A stretch of 64,000 nucleotides of DNA, taken from Medicago truncatula (taxonomy: Eukaryota; Streptophyta; Magnoliopsida; Fabales; Fabaceae). This document shows positions 450 through 57,905 of this stretch, in pieces. The stretch is from positions 51,113,762 through 51,177,761 of the forward strand of contig NC_053042.1 of assembly GCF_003473485.1 (NCBI RefSeq), given 5' to 3'. Position 1 is the first letter of the stretch. Every line of letters starts with the position of its first letter. Below the pieces are notes generated by a model. That model was not told the origin of the DNA. It did not search any database and saw only the letters and a program-made list of their open reading frames with translations. Position numbers and translations under genes: made by a program.

Positions 450-1100
<651 letters not shown>

Positions 1101-1627
1101 TGAGTTTTTATTCGGTTTTACTCTTGGGCCTTCATGGGCTGTTTTTACAAGCATATCTTTATTAAATGCTAATTTTTTTCCACACCCCCATTCTTAATTC
1201 TCACCCTGCATATTATGAAAATTCTAATTTTATAATTCATTTATCACAAACTTAAATTAGTTGTTTGGAATAAAAAAAGAGATTAAGTTATATACATTAA
1301 TGGTGTAAATTTTTCCAGCAAATGCATTTGATTAATTTATGTCTAGATATTTGTACATATATAGGATATTTTATAAACTAATCTAAAAAAGTGGCATTTT
1401 AAAGTTATATAATTGGATACATATTTTTTTTTTTGGCAAAACATAACTGGATACCCGTGTAAACAAAAATATATTGTTGATGTATACAAATTAAATCTAT
1501 GAATAAATAAATGTTTAGAACAACTTTTCTGTTGAATTCAAATTCTAGGTTTGCTATTTTTCTTTAAAAACTTAGTTTCGATTAATAATTGTGATTGAAA
1601 TTTTTCCTTGATCAATAAGCTATATCT
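1101..1627. other. AT-rich intergenic stretch
   Basis: Promoter-side DNA of the ribosomal protein gene. I see no coding potential, RNA gene or clear repeat here. Confidence 0.5.
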
Positions 1628-23021: not shown

Positions 23022-24236
23022 ACATCCTTCAGATGAGTCTTAAAGCGACCAGTGACTGCCCATTGAGCATCACTAGATGAGTTATTTGTTGAAACAAATG
23101 ATATTGACTCAGTCCACTATGGAATGAATCTGAGATGAAAACACTAGAGAAAACTAGTGAAGAAGAAAGTTAATAAGATACTTGCTAGCTGAGCACCCTT
23201 AGTGGGTGAAACCGTTGTCCGAAGTGTTAATTTATTGTGATAGTCTGCAACTATCACAAAATTGAGAATCATTACCACAATGGTGAGAAACGATAATTAA
23301 GGCACGAACACAGAATAATTAGAGAGCTCTAAAAGGAACGGTTAAAGTATATCGTGCACGTACTGATAAAGAATTATTCAATCCTTTGACGAAAGGAATT
23401 ACTAGAAAAAAAGTCATAAACACATCCAATAGGATGTGACTAATGCAGTAGTTAATCGAACAGTTGTAGCTAGGCTTGTTTTATCCTGGAGGCGGCGTGG
23501 TTGATAATCTGTCTTGCACAATTTTGGACATTGCCACGAAACGTCTTAAAGAGAGCGACCTGGTCGTGACTCAACCTAATAACAACTTCGGTGGATAATA
23601 GAATTTGGAAATCCAAATACAACTGTTTGGAAATCCAAAAACAACAGAACTTGAATCATGTATGCCATTGCTTCCTAAAGAATTGTTTGATAAGTGGAAT
23701 GATGCATTGTGTGAAGCTCTTTTTGTTACTGTTCCTAAATTCTACTGTCCATTTAAGGATTGTTCTGCTATGTTGTTGGATGAGAATGAAGGGGTGGAAG
23801 ATATTAGGGAATCTGAATGCCCTTTTTGTCATAGATTGTTTTGTGCAAGGTGTCATGTTCCTTGGCATCCCGGGATTGATTGTGAGGAGTATCAAACATT
23901 GAATGCTGATGAACGAGGGCGTGAAGATCTTCTTGTTAGAGAGCTTGCTAACGAGAAAAAATGGAGAAGGTGTCCCACTTGCAAGTTCTATGTTGAAAAA
24001 ACTGAAGGTTGTTTGCATATCACTTGCAGGTAAGTTAGTCTAAGTCAAATTTGCAACTCTTGTTTGTGATTATGCAGTTAAACATGATAATGTAGTTAAT
24101 CATTACGAGAGTTGTTTGTTTTTAGAATTGAATTAGTGAGTGCAGGGTGGTGTTTGTTTGCAGGTGCCGGTTTGAGTTTTGCTATGCTTGTGGAGAACAA
24201 TGGACTTCTACTCATGGTGGTTGCCAACCAAGTTAA

Positions 24237-24540
24237 ATAGATTTAAATAATTGTCAAGGACATTGCTGCTATTTGCATATTTCTACTTTTCATCAAATAG
24301 ATTATTTTTTGTTCAATTTGTTTGTGTTTAATCATAAGGGTAAATTTGTTAATGTTAAGAGAGAATAATATTAGAAAGTGAATGATGTCCATTGCATTCA
24401 ATAAAAAGTATGCAACTGAGTAGAGCCTAAGACTTAACCAGGTTTTTAGTTCTTCATGTTCACTTTAGACTTTGACTTGATCCCTCATGTATTAATCATT
24501 TCAATACAGTCCTTTGTCTTACATATATCGAGGCCAAATT
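24237..24540. other. 3' flank of RBR copy A
   Basis: AT-rich, with AATAAAAAGT at ~24398 as a possible polyadenylation signal. No gene is seen. Confidence 0.4.
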
Positions 24541-25690
24541 AGAATGTTAATAGATCCATCGAACCTGATGGATCTGTCGATAAGTACAAAAAGACGGGTG
24601 GAAAATGGGTTCTTAAAAGAGTTGGGTTTAGAGTTTAGACTACTCTAAGTATTTGCTCTTGTGTTCACAATTGAAACAATAAGGTTGGTGATTTCTTTGG
24701 CAAGTAGTTGATGTCAAATTTGTTTTCTTAAATAGGCCATTAGAAGGTGAATTTTATGAAGTGTGACCACCTTGATTTGAGGTCGATGGAAGCAAAGACA
24801 TGGTGTATAGGCTGAAGATAGCTTTATATGGGATAAAACAAGGACCAAAGACTTAAAAAACAAAATGATAGACTCTTTCTTGTTCCAGCAACGATTCTCC
24901 CATTCTGCAGTAGTTCATGTTGTTTATGTGAGGGTGCAGAACAAAGCTAAGATGTTGATGACCTGCTTGCTTGTACCTATAAATAATTTAGATGACATTG
25001 AGGAACTCAAGGTAACCATGAATTTATAATTCGGTATGACAGATTTGGGTATGCTCTCTACCATGCTTTTTGGGAATGAAAATTTGTTGTTACTAACAAG
25101 GGGGACAATACTGCATCAGAACAGGTATAATGCAGATGTATTGAGAAGGTTAAAAAGTTCAATTGTAATACTACTGGTGGAGGATTGTGAAAAAATTGTG
25201 TGATCCTTGAGATACCTATGCAATAGTAAACCACATATTACATTTGGTGTTGTGTTGATTACTATATCCATGGAGGTTCAGAGACAGTCACATATATATA
25301 GTAGGTCACTAAAAGGAAGAGTGGATTTTGGTGAATATATGATTTCTAAAATGGTTAGATCATACGAGCCTAGAATTAATTCGATACTCTGATTATGACT
25401 GATGTGATGATAAAGTTGAGTGGAAAAATGCTATTTGCTATATGTTTAAGCTTCTAAATGCCTCAGTCTCTTGGTTCTTGAAGAAGTAATTATTAGTGAT
25501 AGTCTTGTCTGAGCACATAGTAGTCTCTTATGTTGCTTGTCATGCATTATGTGGCTTGACAAAGAATCTAGTTTCATATGGTAGGAGTAAACGCAATTAG
25601 AGTCAATTCTGTTTTCTTTGCGACCAAGTGAATAAAGGTAGAATTGGCAGTGATGCTAAGTTTAGTGTCAATAAGTGATTTTGAATAATA
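24540..25690 (+). mobile_element. Second Ty1/Copia-type fossil fragment (RT-RNase H)
   Basis: Plus-strand, discontinuous matches to Copia polymerase occur in order: DGSVDKYK / GGKWVLK (24560-24620), LNGPLEGEFYEV and DMVYRLKIALYGIKQGP (24720-24860), VDDLLA and FGMTDLGML (24950-25050), then RNase H-like KLLNASVSWFLKK / VSYVACHALCG (25440-25560). No LTRs are recognisable. It is heavily broken and old, without a detectable target duplication. Confidence 0.7.
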
Positions 25691-25744
25691 AGGCCTAAGG
25701 GTGTGTTGAGCTTTGCTATAGTGTGCATAATCATTTGCGATTTC

Positions 25745-26160
25745 CATGGACTGTGATTTTTGCCTTAATACCGATGGTGCTTTGAAGCAAACGACTAGAT
25801 TGGCGGGTTGTGGTGGATTGATTCGAGATGATTGTGGAAGGTGGTGTGAAGGTCTTTGTTTAGCTTGCTTCCATGGTGGTGGTTAGAAGCTTGAATGATG
25901 GTAAAAGGAGAATTGAAGCTTGTTTGGATGGTGTCACACGAAAGATCAAACAAATTCTGGATTAAAGTTGGAATGATGATGGTAAAAGGGGAAGCTTGTC
26001 TGGATGGTGTATCATAAGGAATATCAAACAGATTTTAGATTAAAGTTGGAATGTTAAAATTATTCATGTGTGTCGAGAGATAGTTCAAGTTAAAATTATT
26101 CATGTGTATCAAACAAAAGATGTGCGGATATGCTAGTTAATATGAGTTGTGCTACTAGTA
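25745..26160 (+). mobile_element. LINE-type RNase H (RVT_3-like) fragment
   Basis: The reading CDFCLNTDGALKQTTRLAGC followed by GCGGLIRDDCGRWCEGLCLA matches the RNase H domain attached to plant non-LTR reverse transcriptases (pattern N-x-D-G-A...GCGG-hh-R-D..G.W..G). A second block, SNKRCADMLVNMSCA at ~26105-26155, matches its C-terminal end. Between them an ~80-bp segment is partly duplicated in tandem (AAGCTTG..TGGATGGTGT...AAAGTTGGAATG). It is frameshifted and truncated; no RT or endonuclease is visible. Confidence 0.65.
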
Positions 26161-26614
26161 TGAGAACTTCAGTTTATAATAAGCCCTTCAAGAGATAGTT
26201 CAAGTTCTAATTGATGAATTAGAGTGGTGTTTATTTTCCCGTTTAGTATATACTTGATTAATCACGTTCAAAATACGCTTGTTAATTTCATATGAACAAT
26301 AATTTTCAATGTGAACTAAATTAATAATACATGATTAAAAAGTTGGTGTCCATAAAACATTTTATCTTTCCCTAATTTCATATTTCTCTTTTTCCTACAA
26401 AAACTTCATACCATTGTCGCTTTAATATTATGGTAGAATGAATATTTTGTCGATTTTGTCATAAAATAGATTTAGGATGAGAGGAGGGAATGATGTTCCC
26501 AGCCCAAAGGAGCATTAGTGAATGGAGTATCTTCTTACCATTAAATTAAATATTGAGTTTTTGTTGAACTTTTTTTATTTTAACAAGATATTTGAAGAGG
26601 TGTGCTATTTAAAA

Positions 26615-27025
26615 AGGTAAATTCTATGATACATCCAATATTTTGAGTGTACCGGTACACCAAACATTAAATTAATAATTAAATTGATTGTATTTTGAAG
26701 AAAAAATAATTATTTTTTATCATTGACAATTATAATAATTAAATCTTATTTACCAAAAGCGTCGATGAAATAAAATTTACTTTTTTTGAATTTTTATTGC
26801 TCATAATGAAGAATATTGATTATTTTTTATGAGAAAATGTTAAAAATTTAATATAATTCATATAAACAATGAAATGATGTTTTTTTTTTTCTCATGAAAT
26901 GGTGTTTTCTAAAATATAAATAATGACAAATAACAACTTATTTCATAAAATGATTATTAATTTATAAATTTATGAAGCAGAGTATCGGTACACCTCAATT
27001 TGTGAGGTGTACCGTAGAAGCTCCC
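26615..27025. mobile_element. MITE-like inverted-repeat element
   Basis: The left end (TTCTATGATACATCCAATAT...GAGTGTACCGGTACACC) and right end (read in reverse, TTCTACGGTACACCTCACAA...GAGGTGTACCGATAC) form an imperfect ~45-bp TIR around a ~320-bp AT-rich core with no ORF. The boundaries are approximate and no clear target duplication was found. Confidence 0.5.
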
Positions 27026-27044
27026 ATTTAAAAAAAGAAAAATG

Positions 27045-27345
27045 TTAGAGAAATTGGTATGTGAACTCTTACTCAACACATCATTCTTACACCCAACCAA
27101 TTAAAATCTAACACCTCATTAAAATAATAAAAAAAATTATATTAGAATTTTTTCTCATTATTTTTAATATTTTTCACTCCTTTTTTCCATTTTCTTTAAC
27201 CGACAAGAACCACCATCATCATTTATGTTTCCATTTCCTTAATTAAAATCACTTTTTTTAAAGTTAATAACATGTGTCATTTTTTTATTGGTTGGATGTA
27301 AGAATAATGTGTTAGGTGAGAATTGATGTAAGAATATCTCAATGT
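27045..27345. mobile_element. MITE-like inverted-repeat element
   Basis: The left arm contains ACTCAACACATCATTCTTAC and ACCCAACCAATTAAAA. The right arm contains TTATTGGTTGGATGTAAGAA and TAATGTGTTAGGTGAG in inverted orientation, giving ~55 bp of paired ends and a ~180-bp AT-rich core. There is no ORF. It lies in the upstream flank of RBR copy B. Confidence 0.6.
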
Positions 27346-28209
27346 TAAATATTACTTTTAGATCACTTGTTAAAGAAACGAATTTAAAAATTACTTTGAA
27401 AAGTTCTGTTTTCAACTTTAATCAACTTTTTAAAAGTTTAAAATTTGTCATTTTCAACTCAAAATTTTCATTTTTTGCTTTCGAAATTTGTGTAATTAAA
27501 ACATTTGTAAGTATCACCAACCTTAAAAAATTATAACAAATCTCAAATCTCCTAAATTTTGTTAATTCACTGGATCAAGTGTTTCCCTTACAAACTCATC
27601 TCTTCTATCAATACTATTAATATTTACGATCAATATTCCTTACACATGAATAGGAGCCAAGCAGACAACAAGCTGCGCGCTAGACCTTTTTGAATGGCTA
27701 AATCAATTCTCGTAAACACAACATTTATAGACTTAGGAGACATAACATTGCTATGCATATTCCTTTGGACTCTATGTAGAAGGTCAACTGCCTCTGATAC
27801 TAGGAAGCCAAAAGTATCAAAAGCAAATGGTATAAAAACATGTTCACTATCAAAAGACGCTTTATCATATCTGTCCTACTGTACAACAAATTAATTTATA
27901 AAATTAAATATTCAAACAAAACGATACTCCAATTTGAAGGTGTATATTAATGTTGCCGATTCACGTTATGGCAAAACGGTATGGGTGTATCAACCAACGA
28001 GGAGTTAATAGATTTGGAAAATTGGAAGGCGTTGATAACTAAAGTTATCTCCTTGACTAAGAAGTTAATTACTATTCTCTATATGCGCCCCTTCAAATTA
28101 AAAACGGCATCTTCTCTTTCACGCATCTTCATCTTCTCTTTCACGCTCCACGTTACAAAATCGTTCGTTCCTTAAAAACAAGAAATGTGAAGCATAGACA
28201 CAAACAACA

Positions 28210-30030
28210 ATGGCACAACAACAATCATCCTCATTCCTTGGTCCTGACACCGTAGACGACTTTTACTTCTCTGTTGTCTCCGACGATGAAATTGACCCTA
28301 ACGTTCCTGTCTCCGATGACAAGTACGCTGAAGCATTACAGTTTCAAGAAACCTTATTGGCCTCTGTCATCACTTCTCACCAAAACCCTTCATCCTCTTC
28401 CTTCTTGGCACCACCACATTCATTACCATGCGTAGCATCTTCATCAAAAACGGTTTCTGAAGAGTTACAGTTTCACCAAACCCTTATGCAGTCACCACCG
28501 TTGCACTGTGTAGCATCTTCGTCAAAGTCTATTGAAGTTGGCATTGTCATCAAAGCAGATGAACCGTCTTCTCCAATCATCATTTGCGAGATTTGTGCCG
28601 AAACAAAAACGGCTGATGAAATGTTTAGGAATCAGATATTGTTACCATTCATTTTGTTCTGAATGTGTTGTCAAACAAGTGGCAACAAAAATCCAAGACA
28701 ACATAACAAATGTGTCTTGTCCTGGTTTGAACTGCAAAGGTGTGTTGGAGCTTGAGTCATGCAGGAAATTGCTTCCTAAAGAATTGATTGATAAGTGGAA
28801 TGATGCATTATGTGAGGCTTTTTTTCTTACTGTTCCTAAGTTCTATTGCCCCTTTAAGGATTGTTCTGCTATGTTGCTTGATGAGGATGAAGGAAGAGAA
28901 GATGTTAGGGAATCTGAGTGCGCTTCTTGTCATAGACTATTTTGTGCAAAGTGTCATGTTCCTTGGCATCCTGGGATTGGTTGTGAGGAGTATCAGAAAT
29001 TGAATGTGGATGAAAGAGGAAGGGAAGATCTTCTTGTTAGAGAGCTTGCTAATAAGAAGAAATGGAAAAGGTGTCCAAGATGCAGGTTCTATGTTGAGAA
29101 AAGGGATGGCTGTTTGCATATCACATGCAGGTAATTAAGTTCTAGAGACAATTTTCACTCTTTTCTTTATTTGGATATATAAGAAAAGCAAAAAAATAAA
29201 AAGGTGTACGCTTTTAAACATGATTGTGCAAGTTTCTCATCAAAAGGGTAATTTCACTAATTTGTTTATGGCTTAGTAATCTTTTTTTTCTCACTTAACT
29301 TATTTTTCAGGTTATCGACTTAATGTGGTCTCTTGATTTAAAAATGTGTCACTTCCATCCTTTAATTTTACTATGTTAATCCATAATAGTCATTTTCGTC
29401 ACATACGGGTAAAATAGCGGTTGACTTGATTGATACTTTGATATTTATTTGAATAGACGGTAGTGAAAGATATTTGACATTTGAAATTGTTTTCACCCTA
29501 AACTAGTTGTTGGAATACATTCATTGGGAAAACCCTAAACTAGTTGTCTTCCCCAAATTTGAGACATCACCCTTGCCCATAAAAAAATCATCATAGAGGT
29601 TTGTTGAAAAAAAATATGAGATGAGTGTTCGGATGTTCAATTGAAAGATGCTAATTGGATTGGTTTCTCTGCTTGAACAAGTGCTCCAAAGATCAATATC
29701 GTTCATTGCCTTAGTAGTTAAAAAAGTGATCAAGCGTGCATCAAGAAGAAGACCAGCTTGAAGGAGGTCATGGACAAGCCTTTGAGTTGGTTAATCTTCA
29801 ATGACACTACCATGCTATTAGCCTTTTATCACGCATATATGCTATATAAAAATGTCTTCATTGACTGCTAAGAAATGTGCAATATATTTGCAATAGAAAC
29901 AATTTAATTTGTATTAGTGAATAACGTAACTGAACAAGTGTCGGTGTTTGTTTGCAGGTGCAAGTTTGAGTTTTGCTATTCTTGCGGAGCACAATGGACA
30001 TCTTCTCATGGTGGTTGTCAAAGAAATTAG
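28210..30030 (+). pseudogene. RBR E3 ubiquitin ligase copy B, frameshifted in RING1
   Basis: An ARIADNE-like RING1-IBR-RING2 ligase. Exon 1 is 28210-29130 and the last exon 29958-30030 (splice CATGCAG/GTAATT and TTTGCAG/GTGCAAG, as in copies A and D). The N terminus (MAQQQSSSFLGPDTVDD, KYAEALQFQETLL, EELQFHQTLMQS) is followed by RING1 (CEICAETKT). At ~28632-28640 it reads AATCAGATATTG where copy D has AACCTGAGATG, a net +1 that puts the rest of RING1 (RYCYHSFCSECVVKQ), the IBR and RING2 in another frame. After the shift everything is intact: YCPFKDC, CHRLFCAKCHVPWHP, LLVRELANKKKWKRCP, GCLHITC/CKFEFCYSCGAQW, stop at 30028. ECASC replaces the ECPFC of the other copies. Either a young pseudogene or a sequencing error; it is the least damaged copy. 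Confidence 0.88.
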
Positions 30031-31130
30031 ATTTAAGAAAAGATGATGATTCATATAGATGGGTTGTGGTTGTGGTTATTTTGATATGGATATTGGATGG
30101 TTGTAAAAGTTTAGAAAGAAGACTATATAAGCAAGTCTAGGAAAACTAAGCCGGAAAATCTCAGCCTTTATTATTTAATAATTATTTTCAAAAAGTTATT
30201 CCTCATCTTCTTCTGCATTCTTTGGAAAACCTCTGATCTCAAAAAATGAAGGAAATATGATTAAAACATAGGTGAGATTTAGCATGGGAAAGTCTTGTGA
30301 CTTTCCTAGCGTGGATTTTGTTAAGGGCATTGATATTTAAAGGGAAAGAATTGTTCCTGAAAACTTCATGAAAGTTTTTTAGACAAATCATATCTTGTTA
30401 CTGTCCGGAATTTACGCAGGTTGTGGGGTTAATGTCTCAAAACATTCAACAAACATAGTGGAACTTTTGCTTGCGATGACACTCGTGAAATGGGTTTTCA
30501 TTGTGTTAAGCATTAGCCTTTTTTTAAATTGAAACATTAAAATAACTTGTTAAAAAGTAAAATAATTACAAAATACTTTTGAATTCAAATTTGCTTTTCT
30601 GCATTTTGTTAGTTTTTAATAAATATTTAAATGTTTTAATTCTATAATATCCACTCTGACAAAGTGATAAGGATGTCTTCATGTCAGGTAAGAAAGAATG
30701 GAAACCAAGAGCAAAATTGAAAGAAAATGAGAGGGATTGCAAAAAAATTAGGGAGTCCATAATTGCCAAACTGAGAAAGTTGAGGCGTGCAATTAACCAT
30801 AAAATTATAAAGGTTGTCAATAATAAATGTTTTTTAACAATATTTGAAGTAATAAAAATCATAAAATGTGATCCATTGCGTTATTTAATCTTTAAGTAGT
30901 GATATTTGAACAACTATTCTTGATAACCATCATGACAACTTCCTTTTTCCCTCTTTCTATTGGTCAAAAACAATAAAAAGAGAAAAGGAAGAGAGAGTAT
31001 GAAAGATAAAGTTTTTAAAAGGTTGTCATAAAATAAAATTGTTCTACAAATATCATTTATCTTAATCTTTAGCACAAGTGGTTCGAGATTAGTACATAAC
31101 AGCAACAATGTCGAATCTCTCATCATCATC
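30031..31130. other. Spacer between RBR copy B and the AC19-like pseudogene
   Basis: 3' flank of copy B, then AT-rich DNA with short chance ORFs only. No RNA gene or repeat is recognised. Confidence 0.4.
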
Positions 31131-31283
31131 CTAGTTGTATTGAAGAGAAACGCCGTGAACGCATCCGGAGTTTATGGTCGGACGCCAGAAACAGGTTTCC
31201 TTTTCTTTCTTTTTGATTATTATTATTTTGTGGATTTTAATCAGAGTTGTTGTTAATATTTAGTGGCAGGTTGATTATCAAGT

Positions 31284-32542
31284 ATGGAACACGGTTCATA
31301 CTCGGATTTGAGTAAATCAACGTTTTCTCTTATGGATCACACTTTTGCTAATTCTGTCAGATTCACCTTGAATCAAGAGTTAATCCCAATTCTTACTTTT
31401 GTTCTACTTCTACTTTCTTTCTTGTTTATATATATCCTTATGAAAGTAATTATTGTTGTTCTGCAGTCCAAGAGTGACATTTTGTGGTTACAGCATTCCT
31501 CATCCTTCAGAAAATCGTGTTAATGACAACTGGTATGTGCTAACATATAAGCCGTCTCACGGTAGATATTATGTGACTGTAATTGACAACTGGTAAATTG
31601 TTAAAACTAACTTCAGATGATGTTTGTTGAATACTATGATTTTTTTTTCTTCTTCATCTACTTGTGATGCGTTTAATTTTATTAATCTGCTAACACCATT
31701 ATACTTAATTTTGATGAATTAAACTAACTTGGTTGAGTGTTATACTTATATGTTTGTTTATACTTTATAGTATTATTCATGTAATTTGTCATACTGCTAT
31801 AAGCTATCCTCCTTCTATCCAATGTTTAGGGTTGGCCGGCAGCTGCTATTGACTACTATGCAAATTACTTTTTAATGAAAATGTTATAGGGCAATAGTAG
31901 AGCTTCCTCGACAACAAGTATGTGTTCCACGTTGTCAATTACATAGTGCTTGTAGATTTTTTTGCATATAAGTTTTTGTTGCACTTTCTTGTTATAAAAT
32001 TTGTCTCTTATGATTTGAATCTATTCATCGTAGATAAGTAGGACTAGCAATGAAGTCTAAAGAGAAAGTTGGAGTAGCTTCCAGTATAAAATCAGTATAT
32101 TCTCATATTTTTTTGGTTTAAACATGTGTGGACAAAGACCTAGTAAAGACCAGATAGTTTACAGTCAAATAGTTAATAAGAGGGAGATAGCAGTGAACAT
32201 AAGAGATCGAAATTTAAATTATCTATTAGTAAATATACTAATTCATCCTTGTTATTAACCTATTATGCTGTTGTTTGATCAATTTAATTGAACTCACATA
32301 GTTGGGAAAAGACTCTGGTTGTTGTTGTAGTTATGGTATGGTTTATATCTAATTAAATGTCAATGCATCAGTATTTTTTCTTGAATAGGTGATATCTCTG
32401 TATTGTAGGGGATCCAGCATCTGAGGTGTTAAAAGATGGCTGTCAGGATCTGATGCTTATGTGCCAGCATGTTAGGAGCACTTTTGAGAAGGCAGTTAAT
32501 GATTTTAAAACCAGCAAGACTGAGGATGATATGGATATATGA
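31284..32542 (+). pseudogene. RNA polymerase I/III subunit AC19 (RPAC2/RPC19-like) pseudogene
   Basis: AC19 pairs with AC40 to nucleate assembly of RNA polymerases I and III. Exons: 31284-31378 (MEHGSYSDLSKSTFSLMD, HTFANSVRFTLNQ), 31467-31532 (DPRVTFCGYSIPHPSENRVN) and 32409-32542 (GDPASEVLKDGCQDLMLMCQ, HVRSTFEKAV, ending DDMDI-stop). Introns are preserved, so it is a DNA duplicate. Two lesions are visible. The motif SLM(D/E)EDHTFAN lacks two residues before His. The end of exon 2 goes from RVN straight to ACAACTG, missing about 11 bases that should encode the start of IRVQTT, so exon 3 is read out of frame and stops early. A leader exon with its own intron can be placed at 31140-31269. The gene lies between RBR copies B and C, where no RBR exon 1 remains. 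Confidence 0.85.
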
Positions 32543-32639
32543 ACTAGTGTAGCAAGTTATAGTTTTGATTTTGTACTGGTTATGTTATTTGAACATTAAA
32601 ATATAGACATTATGTTAGTCTTTTTTTCATTAAATACAT

Positions 32640-33370
32640 GTAAACTAGCGGTTGGTATGCATGGTGAATTAGTTAGTGAATGCATTGTGAAAGTCTTCTT
32701 TTTCAAATTCTATGGTTTATGAAATCAGTCTCTTGTCCAAATTTGGGAACATTACTCTTCCATATAAGGGGTGGTGTTTGTTTGCAGGTGCAAATTTCAG
32801 TTTTGCTATGCTCGCGGAGCACAATCAACATCTTCTCACCGTGGTTGTCAAAGAAATTAATGAAAATAGATTTTTTGTGGTTGTTTTAATATGGACAGGA
32901 GAAGTTTGCTACAGTTTAGAGAGAGAGTATAAGCAAGTCTATTATTTGTAGACAGACAAAATATGTTGCATGATCCTTTCGAAAGTATACTTGCTAAGTT
33001 GTTATTACTTATCGTGAATCATGCACGTGTCTAGCTCTATCTTGCGTTTACCAAAAGCTTATGTGCTTTTACCCAAGAGACAAGAAATCAATAATTCCCT
33101 TTCTCAGACAAGCACCATGTACTTCATGTGATATGAAAATAGTGAGATGGGGAAAAAATCTCAGACAAGTACTGTGGCCGGTTATTGTGAGAGTGAACTA
33201 TTGGAGCTGCTCTCAGTCGAAACCTTTTGAAGGGAAACTATATGCACCGCTAAAACTCGAGCATTTTACATGCTACTAGTCTATTTTTGCTATGATTTTG
33301 TTCTACCAAAGGAAATATCACTTCTTGAAGGCATAAGTGAATTGCACCAAATATTAAACTCGTGAGGAAA
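32640..33370 (+). pseudogene. RBR copy C remnant: last exon plus flanks only
   Basis: A lone RBR terminal exon at 32788-32860 (73 bases, the same length as in A, B and D) encodes CKFQFCYARGAQSTSSHRGC, where the others have CK(F/Y)EFCY(A/S)CG(A/E)QW. One zinc-binding Cys of RING2 is Arg here and the Trp is Ser. The preceding intron end (GAAAGTCTTCTT..., CTTGTCCAAATTTGGGA) and ~500 bp of downstream DNA (to ~33370) are collinear with copy D (36330-37790). The upstream exon is absent. A non-functional leftover of the tandem duplication. Confidence 0.85.
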
Positions 33371-34816
33371 AGGCAAGACAAGAGAAAGCAAAAAAAAAAT
33401 TAAAAATTGTTACAAGACAAAAAAAAAAACAAAAAGAGAATTTTTTTTTTTAAGAAACTACAATCTCATGAAGAAGGTTGAAACATCGTCATCTAGATTG
33501 GAAGAAACACCGAGCTTAGTCATGAAGTATACTGTATACATAATGGTTACCTTTGCAAATAGTATGAAATAGTCTAAATTGGTTGTTATCGCGCAATAAA
33601 TCCTTAATGTTCTTGATCAACACATCATAATTATGGAACATATTAGAGGGAGCCTCAGCGAGAGTAGAACAAGATAAAAGTTTGAGTAGCAAACCGAATC
33701 AAGAAGACCCATGTTTTTGGCTAGAGATAAGTCGGGATATATGGCAAGCAGCTTAGCATGACGAATGTCCTCGTAATCTAAATTGAAGTCAGAAAAACTA
33801 GCAATTTGAATTGCGGATTAAACCACCAAATCTAACTCGAGTGGAGCCAATGCAACTATCATCAACATTAATGATTGTGCAAGAGAAGTTATGGGAATTT
33901 CATTTAACAAACCTATCTTCAATGGAGTAGTTATGAGTGTTGTTGACAGAGAACGGGCAACCAAGGACTAAGTCTGCCCCTTTGATACATTGTTAATAGA
34001 CAAATCCTTATTTACACTTAATAAAAAGGTGGGTAGAGTTATGAGTTGTCACATCAATCAAAATAATTTATTTGTTTTCCACTATTTTATAAGGTGGATA
34101 AATGTGTTCATGTTATTTTTTCTATTATACCTTTAATAATTACTATTTTTTCAATTCTTTAATTTATCTTTTTTATTTCATTTATTAAGATTTTTTTTTG
34201 TAAAACAACTGATAAAATTTATTTCTCATATAAAATTAATTACATTTTTTTAATACATGTAAAATAAAATTAATTACATTTTTTAAATATATGTAAAATG
34301 ACATTAACGACTTATAATTTAGGATCGAGGGAGTGCAATGTTTATCAACAAAAAGTTGATAAAGATATGCTAAAATCAATTAAAATTATTCATTTATTTT
34401 TTACACAATTTACGTTATAGAATAGGGTTATGCTAAGAAAACCAAAAGTAATAAATTTGATTAGATTGAACAATATTTTAATTTTTAAAAAGTTAAACTC
34501 ATCATTTTTTTTTTTTACCATTTTTCAATGCATGTTTATATTTTTTATCAAGGGCACTTTATAAAAATATTCAAGCAAACACATTTTCTGCCCCCATGTA
34601 CTATTTTTAGTTGAAATGGAAACAGAAATGGCATAAGTAACTAAGCCATTGAGGAATGAACTAATTCTCTGCGCCCTTTCCCATCAAAACGACAGCTTCT
34701 TTCCACTAAGCTTTCACCCTCACTCCACTTTTATAAACTCGTTCGTTCCTTCCCCCATTTCCCCAAAACCAAAACAAGAAAAATGGAGTGAGCCATAAAC
34801 ACACAAACTTACACCA
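33371..34816. other. Spacer upstream of RBR copy D
   Basis: No gene seen. A/T- and A-rich tracts; a Stowaway-like end (TTAGGATCGAGGGAGTGCAA) at ~34320-34340 with no convincing partner. The promoter of copy D probably lies in the last ~200 bp, with a TATA-like TTTTATAAACTC at ~34730. Confidence 0.45.
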
Positions 34817-36011
34817 ATGGCGCAACAAGCATCCTCCTCATTCATTGGCCTTGACACTGTAGACGACCTTTACTTCTCTATTGTCTTTGATCAAGAAACT
34901 GACCCTGTTTTTGTCTCCGATGACAAGTACGCTGAAGCATTACAGTTCCAAGAAACCTTAATGGCCTCTGCCATCACTTCTCACCAAAACCACTCGTCCT
35001 CTTTCTCCTCTTCACCACCACCATTTTTTCCGTGCGTAGCGTCTTCATCAAAAACTGTCGATGATGAGTTACTGTTCAACGAAACCCTTATGAAGTCACT
35101 CGTCATTTCCCAAAATGCATCCTCATCCACGTCACCTCCATTGCTCTGCGTAGCATCTTCATCAGAGGTAGTTGATGTTGCCGCTGTCGTTAAGACTGAA
35201 CAGGCAAAGGTCTTTACCCAAGAAACAGATGAACCCTCTTCAATCACTGTTTGTGAGATTTGTGCGGAAACAAAAACGACTGATGAAATGTTCAGAAACC
35301 TGAGATGTTATCATTCATTTTGTTCTGAATGTGTTGTCAAACAAGTGGCTACAAAAATCCAAGACAACATAACAAATGTGTCTTGTCCTGGTTTGAACTG
35401 CAAGGGTGTGTTAGAGCTTGAATCTTGCAGGTCATTGCTTCCAAAAGAGTTGATTGATAGGTGGAATGATGCATTGTGTGAGGCTTTTTTTCTTGCTGTT
35501 CCTAAGTTCTATTGTCCCTTTAAGGATTGCTCTGCTATGATGCTGGATGAAAATGAAGATGGACAAGATATTAGGGAATCTGAGTGACCCTTTTGTCATA
35601 GACTGTTTTGTGCAAGGTGTCATGTCACGTGGCATCCTAGGGTTGGTTGTGAGGAGTTTCAAACAATGAATGTGGATGAAAGAGGAAGGGAAGATCTCCT
35701 TGTGAGGGAGCTGGCTAATAAGAAAAAGTGGAAAAGGTGTCCAAGATGTAGATTCTATGTTGAAAAAAATGATGGATGTTTGCATATATCACGTGCAGGT
35801 CAGTTTGTTCTATTCACAAATTCAACTCTTTTCTATTTTAGGAAACAGATCGAACAAAAAATTGATTTTTTTTTTTTTACATTGTGTTTGTTTTTGGTAT
35901 TGTTATCATTTTTGGTGTCACTTTAGTCCTTTAGTTTAACTCTTTTGATTTTTTTTTAATTGAATGAATATTAATGGAAAATGTTAAAGAGTGTCGATAA
36001 AGTTGGTTAAG

Positions 36012-40444: not shown

Positions 40445-41476
40445 TCAGTTCCAGCTAGAAGGCCAAAACCCATGAATCCCATAACCAGTCTTCCAATTAT
40501 CCAAAAACACAACCTGCTTGACAGCCAGAAAACAAACCAACAGCGCGAAAATCATAACCACCCTCTGCACGGTAACACTCTTGATCTTAACAAGACCATG
40601 AGTCATAAACGCCAAAAGCAAACCCACAAGTGTATACAAGAATCCAACAGTAAAACCCTCAGCACCAAGCTGCATTCCAGATCCCTGATAGAAAAACACA
40701 AGCTTCGAAGGATCGTTACGATCCTGAAGAAACATAGGCATTTTCCTTATAATGTTATGCATTGCACCAGAAACACTAAAAAAGTAAACAAAAACAGAAC
40801 CAGCCAACCAAACCCTAGGATCATGCAACAATGTTTTCCCAGTCAAAAGCTTCTTAACAAAAAACGACAACCAGATCAAAACCACAACAACAATGAGAAT
40901 AATTTTGTTTCTAGACAAAATCGGAGGACGATGAATTGGTCCCACAGAGAGTTTCGTTTTCACTTCCACGAATTCCGCCATAGATTCAGCAAGTCTAGAG
41001 AAATCCCCTTGATCCATATGTTCAGAATCCTTCAACCCATGATTAGGACCCACGAGACGAATATGAGGAAGAGCGTTAACACCGAATTGAGAGAAACTGA
41101 GCTGCGATTCTTTGAATTCGATTTCACAAAAGAAGAGTTTTGAAAGAGATGAAGAGTTAGCGTTGTTGGTAATGAATGAAGAAGCGACGATGGAGAATTC
41201 TTTGTGAAGTTCGGTGAGTTTGAGTTCAGATTTGTCATGAAGTTGAGTAGCGTCGAAGAAGATGAGAAGAGAATAGGGTCGTGGGGTTTTGATGGAAGTT
41301 AAGTAACGAGAGATGGATTGGTCGTTGAGATGGATTATTCCTGAATCGGATCTTGATGAAAGGGAAAGAAGCTCGCTTGTTCGTTCTTCGTTTGATGAAT
41401 TTGCGAAGCAGAGAGAGAAAATCACGATGATGAGAATGCCGAGTGAAATTGGTGAAATGTTGCGATGCGAAGCCAT
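40445..41476 (-). CDS. OST3B: Oligosaccharyltransferase subunit OST3/OST6 family
   Basis: A non-catalytic subunit of the ER oligosaccharyltransferase complex, which transfers the dolichol-linked glycan to Asn in nascent proteins. Intact single exon of 343 residues. A signal peptide is at ~1-26 (SLGILIIVIFSLCFA), a lumenal thioredoxin-like domain at ~30-180 (YSLLIFFDATQLHDKSEL, HKEFSIVASSF, FGVNALPHIRLVGP), then four membrane segments at ~191-210, 222-243, 274-295 and 304-324. The C terminus is GYGIHGFWPSSWN, typical of plant members. The redox CxxC of yeast Ost3/Ost6 is not present; the corresponding site reads DATQLHD. I chose the ATG at 41476, just before the signal peptide. An in-frame ATG at 41527 would add a 17-residue Ser-rich extension and spoil a classical signal peptide. 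Near-certain family assignment; the symbol (3A versus 3B) is less sure. Confidence 0.92.
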   Translation of the reverse strand: MASHRNISPISLGILIIVIFSLCFANSSNEERTSELLSLSSRSDSGIIHLNDQSISRYLTSIKTPRPYSLLIFFDATQLHDKSELKLTELHKEFSIVASSFITNNANSSSLSKLFFCEIEFKESQLSFSQFGVNALPHIRLVGPNHGLKDSEHMDQGDFSRLAESMAEFVEVKTKLSVGPIHRPPILSRNKIILIVVVVLIWLSFFVKKLLTGKTLLHDPRVWLAGSVFVYFFSVSGAMHNIIRKMPMFLQDRNDPSKLVFFYQGSGMQLGAEGFTVGFLYTLVGLLLAFMTHGLVKIKSVTVQRVVMIFALLVCFLAVKQVVFLDNWKTGYGIHGFWPSSWN

Positions 41477-41530
41477 GATTCGTGAAGGGTTTTGTGATTG
41501 GGATGAGGAAGAGAAGAAGGAAGACACAGA

Positions 41531-48580: not shown

Positions 48581-50282
<1,702 letters not shown>

Positions 50283-51375: not shown

Positions 51376-51580
51376 ATGTTCATATCCAGGGACGGACCCA
51401 GTGTTCCACTATGTGGGCCGTGGCCCTCACTTAGTTTAGAATTTTTTATTTTAAAATACTACATGTTTGGGGTGTGGTAGTGTTTGTGACTGTTGTAGCA
51501 GTGGTTTTAAAAGAATTATGCTCATTACCCAAACAATATCACTTATTCCCGAAGTAAATGTCCAAAATACCCTTGCGCAT

Positions 51581-53538
51581 TGTAACACCCCGTTACCCAA
51601 AAGTAATTAATAATAATTAAATACACAACATCAGAGTTCAACCCAAACGGGCATGTCACACTACTATATCAAAATTTCTTAAATAGAATATAAAAATCTA
51701 TTTATTAAACATCCATAGAAATCAACATTTAATCAGCAGCGGAATATTATCAGCAAACATCAACAAGTGTTTAAACCTCCAAAATAATATCTTGGCATAA
51801 AGCCTGAACAACATAAATCAACCAACATAGGGCCATAACATCAAGTTCCAAAATAAGATACATAAGGAATGAAATGCAAATAAGAAAACCCATCCCGAAT
51901 GTATCAGAGCCCTAGACACGACACTTGAGCCACCACCAACTACTCAGGATCACCTGCAAGTTACCCATAGGAAGGGCAACATTTTCAAGCAGAAGGGGTG
52001 AGATTCACAACAATAAAATATAGATATTAAAATCATCAAATGAATCTAACACCCTATAAACATCAATACATCATCTTGTAATTATAAATATATATTTCAC
52101 AAAGCAACAACATCATCTTCAATAAGGCAAATGCAACCAACAACAAGACTCATGCATGACATGACGACACCACTAAGACCCCTCAATAATGCAATTATGC
52201 ATGTGGTACCAAACAGGACCGAAGCTCTCACCGCTTTTGAATGGTTAAAGCATTCATCAGGACATAAGCCCTCACCGCTGTGAACAACTAGTGCTCCAGG
52301 ACATGAGTCCTCCCGCTGTTTATGCATATGCTATAGACCCACTAGTGTATATCTACATACAACTTGACCATGCATACATTTTCATATGACTCCGAATTTA
52401 TACAACATGTATGATTTAATAAATATAACATACATTACAGCCATCAACAACATCATCAAACAGTAATCCAAGTAATCCAGGAAGATGCACAATTAATCAC
52501 AATTATGCTCAAACATCAACATCAATCATCACCATTCATATAATACAAGCATCATACAAAAACTGGGCAACTCGCCTCGCGAGCACATCTGCTCGCTATG
52601 GCGAACTCACAAAATAGGTTGCTCGCCATGGCGAGTTCAAGGCGAACTCGAGGCGAGTGAAAATAAAGTGCTCTCGAGAGTTTTGACATTTTTCTCACTC
52701 AAACTTCAATTCTAAGCTCCCTATTCATCTTTTTAATCTAAAACTTGTTCCAGTCCTCTCTAAAATCATTTAGGTACATTAAACTAACCAATATACATCT
52801 TATAACAACAATTTGAAAATCATGTTTTAATCTGGGTTACTCGCCACGGCGATTTGGTCTGCTCGCGGGGCGACCCATGAAGTTGCTCACTCGCGTGGCG
52901 AGCACAAGCTACTCGCGAGGCGAGCGATGAACTTCTGTACGGGCAGAAAACAGGTTTTTCCTCCAAAATCCCATTTTTCTTCAATTCACTCCCCAAATTA
53001 GTTTACAGATGTGCATGAACTTGTTGTATGCACTCAGAACCTATTTCTAACATCAGAACAAAAATCTCTACCCCAAAATTATCCTTTCATCACAAAATTC
53101 GTAATCCCCAATACTCACCAAAAATCTGTTGAACTCAAAATCAGAAATTAACATCTATACTACTGAAGCAAACCTCACCCTTACCTTAAAATTGCATAAG
53201 AAATGCACAGCAAAATCAAATCTTGGCTCTGCTTGCTCTTCTCTCCCTTTCTCCCAAAACTGACAGTTTTCACGTAAACTGCTTTCTGACTCTTTTCTTA
53301 CTTTCTTAACTTCCTTCTCAACTTCCCATTATTTCACTTAACTCCCCATTAATTTTAATAAATTCTATTAACTCCCCAAACACCAAAATAATAATTGTTT
53401 CTCACCTAATCAAATTAATATTAAAACCAACCATATAATAAAATATATCACACCACATAAATCACCAATATTAATTAAAATCATATAATAGACTCTAAAT
53501 AAATTAAAATAAATAGATATATCGACTAGGGTGTTACA
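51581..53538. mobile_element. Solo LTR, probably Ty3/Gypsy
   Basis: A 1,958-bp segment begins TGTAACACCCCG and ends GGGTGTTACA (TG...CA with a short TIR). It is flanked by the perfect 5-bp target duplication CGCAT (51576-51580, 53539-53543). No coding sequence or second LTR is present, so it looks like a whole solo LTR left by LTR-LTR recombination. The middle has repeated GC-richer motifs (CTCGC(C/T)ATGGCGAG, ACTCGCGAGGCGAG) at 52560-52940. The exact target duplication and the restored CGCATGTTAACATGCG of the host repeat suggest a fairly young insertion. Gypsy assignment rests only on terminus style and length. Confidence 0.85.
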
Positions 53539-53639
53539 CGCATGTTAACATGCGCTCGTGTATTTTTTTTTACCTATGTAAGTCACACTACGCGACTTAA
53601 CATGCGCTAGTGTATTTTTTTTACCTAAGTTAAGTCACG

Positions 53640-55070
53640 TAGCGTGACTTAACTTGCGCTAGTGTATTCTGAGCGTGAGTTAACTCGCACCAGTTGGCCG
53701 GTGCAGAACTGAAGAACAACCGTTTTTTGGTATGTGGTCAGTTTTTCAACATTCAATCCACACGTTTTTAACACTATTTTACACTTTTTTTGACCACATT
53801 AATGGTGTTTACAACCTATACTACCATTCCCACCTATAAATACCCCTCCATACTTCCCTAATTCCTCACACCATATCACTTTCTCCCCCTCCTCACTCTC
53901 TCCCTCTATTTCTCTTCTTTCTTTCTTTTTCAATATTCTCTTTGGGGGCAAAAGTGCTCAATCTTCGTCGGGATAAAATAGTGAGAAGCCGACATGGGGA
54001 AGTGATCGACCCTTGGGATAATTAATTTTTTTTTTTTTACTCCATAAACTTTTTACCGTGGGTAAAAAGATTCTTCTTGGGGTATAAAAAATCAAATTTA
54101 AATTTTGCCCAAGGGTTGATGATGTATTTTTCCCATGAAGGCTGCTCACTATTTTACCCCGTGATGATTGTTTACTTTTTACCCCAAAGAAGGAGAAAAT
54201 AAGTAGTGAATTTGAATAAATTATTGTAAGAATTATTGTATTGTATGAATTATTAATAGAATGAGAAATTGTTATATGCCTCAATTTAGTTCATTCCTTT
54301 TTATTTTATATTTGTTTTTATATTCCAATTTTGTATTTAATGAATAAATATTAATTTAGTTCATTTACTTTTATTTATATTTGTATTTATTTAATGAATA
54401 ATATCGAATCAATATTTATTTTAAGTGCATAAATAAATTAGAATAAAGTAAATAAATTAATTTGAATATAGTAAATAAAATAATTTAGATTAATGTAAAC
54501 AAAATAATTTAGATTAATGTAAACAAAATAATATAGAATAAAGTAAATAAAATAATTTAGAATAAAGGACTAAATGTAACCAAAAAATAAGAATAAAGAC
54601 CTAATTGAAAATTATTTAGTGCATATGTTTCATATGCACTAAATGATCAGTCAAAAAATAGTAAAAAAAACGTGTAAAACTCAATAAAAGTGTTGAATAA
54701 TCGACTAAAGTTCATAAAACGTGTTGTTGATCACCGGCCAAACTGGCGTGAGTTAACTCACACTAGTGTTAACCTGGGTGTGAGTTAACTCGCTAGTGTT
54801 AATCCTGGCCTCAAGAACTCACGTTCTTTTGACTTTGTTCAATGCATTTTAATTGTTTTTACACGTTTTTGTTAGATATAACCTATGTTACAATCTCCCC
54901 CTATAAATACACCTCTAAACTTCTCCATTTTCTCACTCCAACTCACATTCTCACTCTCCTCCTGACTCTCTCCTCCTCACTCTCTCCCCCCATGAATCTT
55001 CCTCCTTTCCTTCTTTTTTCCCTTCTTTATTTTGGTGTAAAAAGAGAAAGAATGATAAATAGTGGGAATG
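53640..55070 (+). repeat. Two promoter-like blocks in direct orientation
   Basis: Block 1 (~53670-53960) and block 2 (~54760-55040) share: GAGTTAACTC, GGCCGGTG or ACCGGCC nearby, TTTTTACACGTTTTT-like tracts, CAACCTATACTACC or ATAACCTATGTTACAA, then CCTATAAATAC(C/A)CCTC (TATA box), and long CT-rich leaders (TCTCCCCCTCCTCACTCTCT against CTCTCCTCCTCACTCTCTCC). Each is followed by chance-like short ORFs only. They look like duplicated promoters plus leaders of a lost or captured gene. Confidence 0.6.
54439..54567 (+). repeat. 24-bp minisatellite, ~5.4 units
   Basis: Unit consensus TAGA(A/T)TAA(A/T)GTAAA(T/C)AAA+ATAATT, five nearly complete 23-24-base units, with two adjacent units (54486-54533) almost identical. 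It lies in the AT-rich part of the composite Mutator-like element. Confidence 0.85.
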
Positions 55071-55441
55071 TTGGGGAAAAGATAAGTAATGAGCAGCTTT
55101 CATGAAAAAAGAATCAGATTTCCTAAAACTAAATGTGCAGATTTAGTTTTACCCCAGAAAGCTAGGTTTTCTGGTGGTTTTCTTTTAGTTTTACCACAGG
55201 GAGGTCGGTTTTCTTTTAGTTTTACGCCCTGGAGATAGGTTTTCTGGTGATTTTTATTTTTTCGCAGATTTAGTTTTACCCCATTGTAAATGCAATAAGA
55301 ACTATATTAATAAAATGATATTTTATATCTATTATTTTTGTTTTTTTATTTTTGTTAATTGTTGCATTTATTTTATGATTGATTGCGTGCGTACTGAATT
55401 AAAAATTCGAGTAAAGTCAATAATTAAATTAGAATAAATTT

Positions 55442-55519
55442 AGCGTGAATTCGAATAAAAATTGGGACAGCGTGAATTCGAATAAAAATTGCGACGGCGT
55501 GAATTTGAATAAAAAGTCT
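55442..55519 (+). repeat. 27-bp tandem repeat, ~2.8 units
   Basis: The unit AGCGTGAATTCGAATAAAAA followed by TTG(G/C)GAC is repeated, with a third partial unit reading GGCGTGAATTTGAATAAAAA. It lies just upstream of the hairpin pair. Confidence 0.85.
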
Positions 55520-55542
55520 AATTAAGGTTTCGTTACATTACA

Positions 55543-55788
55543 TGCACCTTTCAACTACAACAATTGTCTTACCCGTGAATGGGGCAAATTTAAACTTGTT
55601 AAGAAGCAGGACTCCAATATTCCATCAGCATCTTGAATGACGGTATTCAAGTGTCAAAAGAATGAGGTGCATTCCTTGACACTTGAATACCAGCATTCAA
55701 GAGGCTTATCGAATATTGGAGTCATGCCGATTAACAAGTTTGAATTGCCCCATCCAGAGTAAGACAATTGTTGTAGTTGAAATGTGCA
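55543..55788. repeat. Long hairpin H1 (possible small-RNA precursor)
   Basis: A ~246-bp imperfect palindrome. The 5' arm starts TGCACCTTTCAACTACAACA, and the 3' arm ends TGTTGTAGTTGAAATGTGCA. Arms of ~113 bp pair with roughly 85-90% identity by eye, including ACTCCAATATTC with GAATATTGGAGT and GGTATTCAAGTGTCAA with TTGACACTTGAATACC, around a ~18-nt loop. The mismatches are scattered as in an ageing foldback. There is no convincing ORF. It could be a foldback insert, or a transcribed hairpin feeding siRNA or miRNA production; only the fold is seen. Confidence 0.85.
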
Positions 55789-56116
55789 TTCCAACTACAA
55801 CAATTGTCTTACCTTTGAATGGGGTAAATTCAAACTTGCCAAACAACAGGACTCAAGCATTTCGCCCCGCATTCATGTTTTTCCTTTGAAAAGAATAAAT
55901 TTTTGTTAAGCTTGCTTTAGATGATGGTATTCAAGTGCCAATGAAATGAGGTTCATTCCTTGACACTTAATACCCTCATCTAAACCAGCATAACAAGAAT
56001 TTAATCTTTTCAAAGGAAAAACATGAACGCTGGGCGAAATGCTTGAGTCATGGCCGTTTGGCAAGTTTGAATTACCCCATTTCAGAGGTAAGACAATTGT
56101 TGTAGTTGGAATGCAC
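55784..56116. repeat. Long hairpin H2, tandem paralogue of H1
   Basis: A ~330-bp imperfect palindrome starting TGCATTCCAACTACAACAAT and ending ATTGTTGTAGTTGGAATGCA, with arms of ~160 bp around a loop near AATGAAATGAGGTTCATTCC. It shares the outer stem (CAACTACAACAATTGTCTTA, TGAATGGGG, AAACTTG) and the loop-proximal GGTATTCAAGTG / TTGACACTT with H1. It differs through the middle of both arms, where it has AAGCATTTCGCC, TTCATGTTTTTCCTTTGAAA and their complements instead of the H1 middle. Confidence 0.85.
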
Positions 56117-56207
56117 CTTACCATAACTAATGACGATCTTCTGGCGAAATCAAGCTGTTGATGACATCTTCAGTTGATCTCAGCAACGTTACCCGCATAT
56201 CGATCTA

Positions 56208-56500
56208 CTAGAACATGTTGTGCTCCCAAAACATGCTCGTCACGTTTTCGTCGTTCTTTAACTCCACCCAAGTGAATGATATTCTCCCCTCGTCGAGCGT
56301 TGGACGTTTATACCGAACGTATTCCACCCTCCTTGCATCTCTGGGGTTGACTCCTTGATTGAATTCATTCAGTTGATCCTTGAGACCTCTTAACGTTACA
56401 TCAAGGCACCGAACCTTCAACCTCTGAGGTTCTCCGCCGTTGAATTTTGCATGAACGTCGATCCACCCGACCATTGTTTCAAATCTACACAATAAGAAAT
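56208..56500 (-). pseudogene. MuDR N-terminal-like domain of a MULE transposase, fragment
   Basis: Minus ORF 56546-56208. From ~56475 it reads VGWIDVHAKFNGGEPQRLKV, LDVTLRGLKDQLNEFNQGVN, VEYVRYKRPTLDEGR, FTWVELKNDENVTSMFWEH. This matches the N-terminal (ubiquitin-like) region of plant MULE transposases, whose pattern is a beta strand, a basic stretch, a 'L...L...' helix, R.V..V.YR.P.....G...F...EL.ND.DV..MF. The Met just before VGW may be the original start. The ORF ends at NMF plus a stop; the zinc-knuckle, catalytic DDE and SWIM parts are not found downstream, where the hairpins lie. A decayed remnant of the element's own gene. Confidence 0.65.
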
Positions 56501-56559
56501 TAAACACAATCAATGAAAAACTCATTCCAACATTTTTATCAAACACTTGGTAAATTATA

Positions 56560-56900
56560 CATAAACCCTACAACATAAACATGCAAACATCTAAATAATT
56601 AAGCAATATTACTCATTTGCATGTAACATTGGGTCATATCTTGCAAAAAAAAAATAAAAAATTTAAACAAACGCTAAATCTAAAAAAATCTAATCTAAGT
56701 GTAAAAAATCTAACATAGTATCTAAACATCATAACAATTAAGCACTATAAGTCATTTGCATGTAATATTCTATCATTTCTTGCAAAAAAAAAATTAAAAT
56801 TTTAACAAAACAATAAACCTAAAAAATTATAGATTAAGTGAAAAAATCTATCATACCAACATAATTTAAGTGAAAGCTTACTTGTTCTTATTGTTGGAGT
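56560..56900 (-). repeat. ~170-bp direct duplication
   Basis: Two adjacent diverged units: CATCTAAATAATTAAGCAAT...TCATTTGCATGTAACATT...TCTTGCAAAAAAAAA at ~56586-56660, and CATCATAACAATTAAGCACT...TCATTTGCATGTAATATT...TCTTGCAAAAAAAAA at ~56728-56800. Non-coding; just upstream of the MuDR-like ORF. Confidence 0.7.
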
Positions 56901-57905
56901 ATTATTTGATTTGAAGGAATTTTGGAGTTGGGTAATTTGAGAGAAAATTGAGATTTGTGTGTGTGTGTGTTGTGTTTGAAAATGATGCAGAATGAGGTTC
57001 TGACTGGGCTATAATAACAGCACGTAGCGTGACTTAAGTCACGTAGAGCAACTTAAGCCACGCTGTGTGACTTAAGTTGTATTCCTCTTATAACTAGCGC
57101 AACTTAAGTCACGTTACGCATGTTAACATGTGCAAGAGCATTTTAGACATTTATTTTAAAAATGAGCGATACTGTTTGGATAATGAAGAGAATTCGTTTT
57201 AAAATACTACCTAGTAGTTAGTACATTACAAAGCCTTCAATATAAAACAATTGTATTATCCAATTACTAATATGACGTAAGACAATTGGATTAAAGAATA
57301 TGTTGGCAAATAGCTCCAGGAAGTGAGCTTTAAGAAAAAACAAAAACATAGCCAATACTATCATAACTCATACATAGCCAAAGAACATGCGAGTGGAAAT
57401 AGAAAGCAAGAAATAACCCCATCTTTTTTTTATAAGAAGAGGAAAACAAGTCTATTTTTTAGAGCCTGAAAACTATTTTTTAGATGTATGCTCTAACCGT
57501 TAATTTTTAGAATCAGGGGGGTTGACGATCTTTTTATAAAGCTCATTGAGACAAAAAAATATACGGTGTTTCGCTAGAATATTTATTCATAGAGTTATCT
57601 CTGGTATTACTTTTGCGAAATGCAATAACGAAAAGACCATTCTTTGTTAGTATATTGTAAAAATGGAATGTGAAATTGCATGAGATGAATGGCCAAATTA
57701 CTGGTTTATATGTGGCCTACACTGTCGAAAATTTATGAGTCCGTCCATGTTCATATCTAAACTAATATTAATCGAACTAAAAAAAAAAATTAGAATAAAA
57801 CAAGAGATAAATATATTGATCTAAACCAAAACAATTGAGTTCAAATGGTTAATAACTTCCACCAAAGACGAATTGTTCAATACGGTTGTGATTGAGATGA
57901 ATATA

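Follow-up and report, generated by a model that had tools for sequence, protein, structure and literature searches.

The window analysed here is a stretch of Medicago truncatula DNA 64,000 nucleotides long. Within it two adjacent foldbacks, H1 and H2, raise a simple question. The middle of the stem differs between the two hairpins, yet within each hairpin the two arms agree. How can neighbours come to differ from each other while each still matches itself?

Two tandem foldbacks

The hairpins and the reading frame beside them are as follows.

About 55549..55781: hairpin H1, with a short middle (arm comparison, RNA fold)
About 55788..56111: hairpin H2, with a long middle (arm comparison, RNA fold; pairing on the minus strand extends to 56116)
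55542..55550: left boundary sequence of the hairpin pair, ATGCACCTT, nine bases (from the sequence)
56111..56119: right boundary sequence of the pair, ATGCACCTT, a direct repeat of the left one (from the sequence)
55779..55790: H1/H2 junction, GAAATGTGCATT, near the reverse complement of the boundary sequence (likeness judged by eye)
55659..55674: loop of H1, AGAATGAGGTGCATTC, a small stem-loop in its own right (263 exact genome matches)
55945..55958: H2 loop, AATGAGGTTCATTC (from the sequence)
55870..55914: block in the 5' arm of H2 that has no counterpart in H1 (arm alignment)
55986..56029: block in the 3' arm of H2, partner of 55870..55914, also without a counterpart in H1 (arm alignment)
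56127..56474, minus strand: short ORF of 116 codons including the stop, with two in-frame stops in the window copy (ORF listing)

H1 and H2 are real tandem foldbacks. The initial annotation described two adjacent hairpins with a common outer stem and a common block near the loop, and this is borne out by the inverted arms, the direct-repeat likeness and the folds of both strands. Its coordinates are correct within a few bases. As direct repeats the two hairpins are 80% alike over 80 nt (from 55542 and 55782) and 88% alike over the 48 nt of the loop block. Folding of both RNA strands, which had been proposed as a check, gives -378.8 kcal/mol for the minus strand of the 574-nt pair (z -36.9) and -357.2 kcal/mol for the plus strand (z -29.6). 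For each strand 0 of 100 shuffles equal the value. The difference between the middles is also real, and it is chiefly a symmetric absence in H1.

The hairpins lie 3' of the short minus-strand ORF, after its stop codon, with 10 nt between that codon and the first paired base of H2 (56116). This ORF was originally called MuDR-like. The ORF itself is real. It is an open frame of 112-179 aa in 150 scored genome matches (of 796 candidates), and has a dN of 0.075 and a dS of 0.156, a ratio of 0.48 (35 copies, 595 pairs). The family searches do not bear the name out. The ORF matches no Pfam or NCBIfam family above the cut-off. A tblastn comparison for homology to the N-terminus of a MULE transposase gave nothing below E 3 in the 2 of 150 scored MULE-domain loci that were compared.

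Other subfamilies have a plus-strand ORF (MSQNQ...TCYFGPQP) that runs toward the hairpins, so the hairpins can lie between convergent ORFs. It was matched in 11 loci and not in the window. This conserved frame, which converges on the short ORF, is found at 1007-1219 (+) of L031 and in 10 other loci. A scan of one copy, that of L041, gave no Pfam or NCBIfam match. Elsewhere in the window, Pfam matches mark three IBR/RING-type gene pieces at 23605-35587 (+), probably tandem ubiquitin ligase genes, an OST3/OST6 family gene at 40445-41527 (-) and a Thi4 family gene at 49341-50255 (-).

The element around the hairpins

Longer matches to the hairpin flanks in the other copies reveal a larger element around the pair.

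51513..57195: non-autonomous Mutator-type (MULE) element carrying the hairpins, with inverted ends (GAATTATGCTCATTA... / ...GAATTC) (TSD, TIR)
51504..51512: left copy of the 9-bp target-site duplication (TSD), GTTTTAAAA (from the sequence)
57196..57204: right copy of the 9-bp TSD, GTTTTAAAA (from the sequence)
51581..53538: stretch of 1958 bp, TGTAAC...GTTACA, nested near the left end of the element, with CGCAT (5 bp) on both sides (from the sequence)

The TSD is perfect in the window. Across 21 loci (20 plus the window), with element ends allowed up to 4 mismatches to a 15-mer, 11 have a perfect TSD, 2 have one mismatch and 8 have none that was found. Terminal inverted repeats (TIRs) are present, as the right-end sequence is recovered inverted at left ends. 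A 9-nt duplication is typical of MULEs (PMC4486113). The TSD and the TIR are the basis for calling the superfamily Mutator-type. No transposase (PF10551 or mudrA-like) was found in the element, and no ORF of at least 120 aa is listed within 51513-57195. For this reason the element is called non-autonomous.

The element holds other features. The 51581..53538 stretch looks like a solo LTR and is a candidate for one. In L028 a relative of window positions 51574-53399 is inserted at the hairpin edge, at the equivalent of window position 56114-56119. A third hairpin of the element, at 53968..54162 (+), scores as the Rfam MIR2670 precursor with 173.8 bits (gathering score 117). The same hairpin is present in 5 of the 8 long copies scanned and in 2 of 18 shorter loci. 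This precursor lies inside a transposon family, and therefore at least these MIR2670 copies are transposon-borne. A TATA-like stretch, judged by eye, lies upstream of it.

The pair as a unit is repeated across the genome. Scoring of 40 candidates (433 in a first look) gave the window and 39 copies at 91-95% identity, full or near-full length. The initial annotation took many genome-wide copies as the mark of a simple foldback MITE inserted twice. The many copies exist, but they are copies of the whole pair and do not take the form of such a double insertion. The loci studied were L001-L008 (3.6 kb), 20 long loci (L009-L028), 18 medium loci (L029-L046), 11 short loci (L047-L055, L058, L059) and two MULE-domain loci (L056, L057). 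The first copy sets were found by hairpin sequence, so conservation figures drawn from them are biased.

The hairpins keep a fixed place beside the ORF. The loci L029-L046 were chosen on outer-stem patterns and nothing else. In all 18 the ORF stands next to the hairpin, although in L039 it is without the first ~50 bp next to the hairpin. In the opposite direction, we took 56 ORF loci on C1, C2 and C3 (below 48.3 Mb) and looked for the exact 16-nt loop or 22-nt outer stem. Within 750 bp of the ORF, 39/56 show such a mark to the 3' side and 0/56 to the 5' side. H2 is present in at least one (L031) of the 17 loci where no exact mark turned up. Another of the 17, the second copy of the ORF in L015, is flanked by no more than the end of a hairpin arm. 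Both of the two loci fetched by the ORF alone carry hairpins, with H1 cut short in L058. These two are 99.4% identical over 511 bp, which suggests recent movement. One exact-pattern search of the genome for a hairpin-free empty site had 0 matches. In the copies sampled, the hairpins adjoin the ORF, and their spread has gone along with that of the element. Among the matches listed, no published description of this hairpin family appears by title or abstract opening.

A proposed duplication and symmetric loss

For H1, the H2 subtypes and a single hairpin, H3, consensus arms were built and aligned, the 3' arms as reverse complements. H3 is known from L029, L040, L041, L047 and L055. Each consensus is drawn from 1-27 copies (one locus for H1D and for H2D, two for H2C), with 6 sequences of unrecognised loop left out. 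A block of ~45 bp is missing from both arms of H1 and of H1D. It is present in both arms of H2A, H2B, H2C, H2D and H3. The ORF beside H3 (L029, L040, L041) is 77-88% like that of the window, against 89-95% elsewhere. Because this ORF is more diverged, we take H3 as the outgroup. Since H3 has the long form as well as the more diverged ORF, it is simpler to suppose that H1 lost the block symmetrically.

H1 and H2 look like direct duplicates, and the arm alignment supports the earlier suggestion that the hairpin was duplicated. From the comparison of copies, an older single hairpin like H3 would have been duplicated in direct orientation to give H1 and H2. H1 would afterwards have lost the same ~45-bp block from both arms. 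The loss may have been one event in an extruded hairpin, or a loss from one arm that was then copied to the other. Two further arrangements were seen. On the 3' side of the ORF, L040 has a tandem pair of H3-type hairpins, which seems to come from another duplication, independent of the first. At 1320-1567 of L046 there is a hybrid hairpin in which the 5' arm of H1 is joined to the 3' arm of H2 by a deletion.

Probable copying between the arms

The agreement of the arms changes from one part of the stem to another. In the middle, the arms within a hairpin differ at 4/41 sites in H2A and 3/42 in H3, while a comparison of H2A with H3 by side gives 10/42 and 9/42 differences. Closer to the loop it is the 3' arms of H2A and H3 that are identical (0/30), and the arms within a hairpin differ at 4/30 (H2A) and 5/31 (H3). 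Between the inner 5' arms of these two there are differences at 6/32 sites, which counts against a copying reading. The outer arms differ at 2/81 sites in H2B versus 9/81 in H2A, and the inner arms of these two subtypes are identical by side (0/32, 0/30). H2D, from one locus, has a new version of part of the middle in both of its arms.

Site types are also clustered along the arms. Runs tests found them more clustered than in shuffled order in 5 of 8 comparisons (p 0.001-0.006), which share arms and hence are not independent. The other three are not significant (H2D/H3 p 0.33, H1/H1D p 1.0, H1/H2A p 1.0), and a ninth pair, H2B/H3, has p 0.0503. Three crossed sites in H2A/H3, where 5' is like 3', fit neither the within-hairpin nor the by-side pattern. 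On the trees, from which 3 H1 and 3 H2 sequences were left out, H1 has 11 same-branch double changes, 9 of them compensatory (200 shifted controls: mean 3.0, sd 1.9, maximum 8). For H2 the doubles likewise number 11, and 5 are compensatory, but this total stays inside the control range (mean 3.7, maximum 12) and is no clear excess.

Tract-like blocks of this kind argue for conversion or template switching, as base-by-base selection for pairing does not predict blocks. The agreement of the arms therefore points to patchy arm-to-arm copying by one of these routes. The initial annotation had offered conversion within each hairpin as one way to keep the arms matched, and the arm differences and the five runs tests do look like copying between arms. 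We propose that from time to time tracts of tens of bases in one arm are replaced by the sequence of the opposite arm, and that such occasional overwriting is the reason each hairpin matches itself better than its neighbour. The copying could be arm-to-arm gene conversion. It could also happen when a nascent strand snaps back at the loop palindrome and copies its own strand. A continuous homogenisation of the arms in every copy was rejected, because on the tree more single changes disrupt a pair than preserve one. Taken as a whole, it is fairly likely that H1 and H2 form a module inside a repeated, non-autonomous transposon of Mutator type, and that their arms were matched by patchy copying after a duplication and a loss.

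Both routes have known parallels. Template switching has been described as creating and maintaining RNA hairpins (PMC8794818), with multi-base compensatory changes, loop inversions and loop-primed copying of one half of a stem. Those cases concern short stems in rRNA gene histories, whereas here stems of more than 100 bp lie in a transposon and each arm has the symmetric ~45-bp loss. Gene conversion is likewise known to make the arms of palindromes alike. The works noted on this, several of them on sex chromosomes, concern large palindromes, whereas ours are hundreds of bases long, lie in a transposon and are only patchily alike.

Alternative explanations

Selection on a folded RNA, either a hairpin siRNA or a MIRNA precursor, would also keep arms paired by means of compensatory changes. 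We consider it unlikely as the explanation here. The excess of same-branch doubles in H1, 9/11 of them compensatory, speaks for it. Paired columns change less than unpaired ones (1.02 vs 1.61 per column in H1, 1.00 vs 1.66 in H2), a comparison that is partly circular. The minus-strand RNA folds better in 29/29 H1 and 33/37 H2 copies, and it has more G-U pairs (243 vs 91 and 282 vs 149). We withdrew the argument for strand selection from these raw G-U counts, because shared ancestral changes were counted many times. Counted as tree events, minus-strand wobbles are 14/20 internal and 39/83 terminal in H1 and 14/27 internal and 69/120 terminal in H2, and neither hairpin shows a significant bias (smallest p 0.115). 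Single changes that break pairs outnumber those that keep them by 111 to 54 in H1 and 181 to 69 in H2, a raw ratio that has no neutral benchmark. Mismatches in the inner stem that tell 3' from 5' arms have persisted from H3 to H2, which counts against this alternative. Another hairpin of the same element does score as MIR2670, but H1 and H2 themselves are below the Rfam gathering score. No Rfam 15 family reaches that score for them in the window or in the 18 further loci scanned, and sub-threshold scores to animal miRNAs were taken as chance.

Conservation gives this alternative some room. H2 is about as conserved as the ORF (pairwise differences in 26 common copies are 0.083 for H2, 0.104 for H1 and 0.079 for the ORF). 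It is the segment most like the window copy, at 95.1% with a gap fraction of 0.003 versus 93.4-94.1% for the ORF, in a sample that was chosen by similarity. Cells are paired slightly more often than when permuted, at 0.9401 vs 0.9340 (sd 0.0013) in H1 and 0.9420 vs 0.9398 (sd 0.0009) in H2, figures from which relatedness is not removed. The above-permuted pairing, the slower paired columns and the likeness of H2 are signs of constraint that a copying reading does not need. The data leave room for constraint on H2, in a conservation sample that is biased. Still, no small-RNA function is needed to explain the matching arms. The idea of a proto-MIRNA cluster is not supported, as the pair is a module of a repeated transposon with no Rfam family at the gathering score. 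Six 20-mers from stem and loop returned no published small RNAs in main texts. Any read-through transcript would be expected to fold into long duplexes, a possible substrate for Dicer enzymes, and the products could put the whole family under silencing in trans. Structures like miRNA precursors occur in maize TEs (PMC10760457), and the likeness is one of hairpins inside TEs as possible sources of small RNAs. That study is a genome survey in maize, and the text of it that we drew on holds no analysis of arm copying.

The pair was also compared in principle to Mu killer, a special inverted-repeat locus. A long foldback inside a Mutator-type element does recall the inverted duplication that silences a transposon in trans, and both are long inverted repeats connected with such elements. 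Mu killer of maize holds inverted mudrA and TIRA sequence (PMC3440606). When H1 and H2 were searched by BLAST against the remainder of the window, which contains the ORF and terminal repeats of the element, no match exceeded 20 nt and the best had E 0.25. Unlike Mu killer as that source describes it, these hairpins show no similarity to mudrA or TIR and recur over the genome, and a pair present in many copies is not one locus. We rejected this reading since the hairpins have no similarity to the ORF or the TIR, and consider it hardly credible. The other transposon scenario is that a stand-alone Mutator-type foldback MITE was inserted into the element, once or twice. The nine bases of ATGCACCTT flank the pair as a direct repeat, and a foldback MULE family, MuTAnT, is known in Medicago truncatula, with a type element of 292 bp, a 9-nt TSD and 218 elements (PMC4486113). 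It shares with the element here the Mutator type, the 9-nt TSD and the strong hairpin. However, the 218 related MuTAnT elements are hairpins in themselves, built of terminal repeats with the TIR mask GGGGTTTGCTAGAACA (PMC4486113), while the hairpins here are internal and follow an ORF, and the element termini are GAATTCTGCTCATTA-like. The ORF stands beside the hairpin in 18/18 loci chosen by stem pattern alone. A copy of the boundary sequence is inverted at the H1/H2 junction, as is the right copy in two H3 loci, L029 and L041. The boundary sequence therefore behaves as part of the hairpin ends, and its reading as an insertion scar is weakened. Insertion of such a MITE is very improbable as the origin of the pair, although the very first hairpin may have come from one.

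The loop

The loop deserves attention of its own. AGAATGAGGTGCATTC has 263 exact matches in the genome, and the reversed control has 0. Of nine loop loci away from the listed outer stems, 7 belong to this hairpin family. L050 (1-441) is a long hairpin with a different stem and the same AGAATGAGGTGCATTC loop, and L048 has the loop with no long hairpin there. In L029 and L041 a hairpin beside H3, which we call H0, has the stem of L050 as judged by eye. The loop, a small palindrome, could seed new hairpins; this is a lead and not a result. A stronger form of the idea is that the transposon depends on its array of hairpins and that the array mends itself. The conserved loop AGAATGAGGTGCATTC would prime the copying of one arm anew from its partner, the element would retain a long double-stranded 3' end over time despite replacement of the stem, the structure would serve the element, and the stem of L050 would be an independent product of the same seed. 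We think this quite unlikely. If it were true, the structure could end transcription between convergent genes, or limit its own expression via siRNAs. What can be said of the hairpin module is that it is an internal, evolving part of a Mutator-type transposon.

Implications

H1, H1D, H2A, H2B, H2C, H2D and H3 form a natural series of hairpins in which arm copying can be mapped and dated. Template switching versus selection for pairing becomes testable in one genome. The series also carries a warning: in a TE hairpin, arms that match and changes that compensate are not enough to show a working RNA. The choice between template switching and selection for pairing bears on how long inverted repeats persist and on how new MIRNA genes come about.
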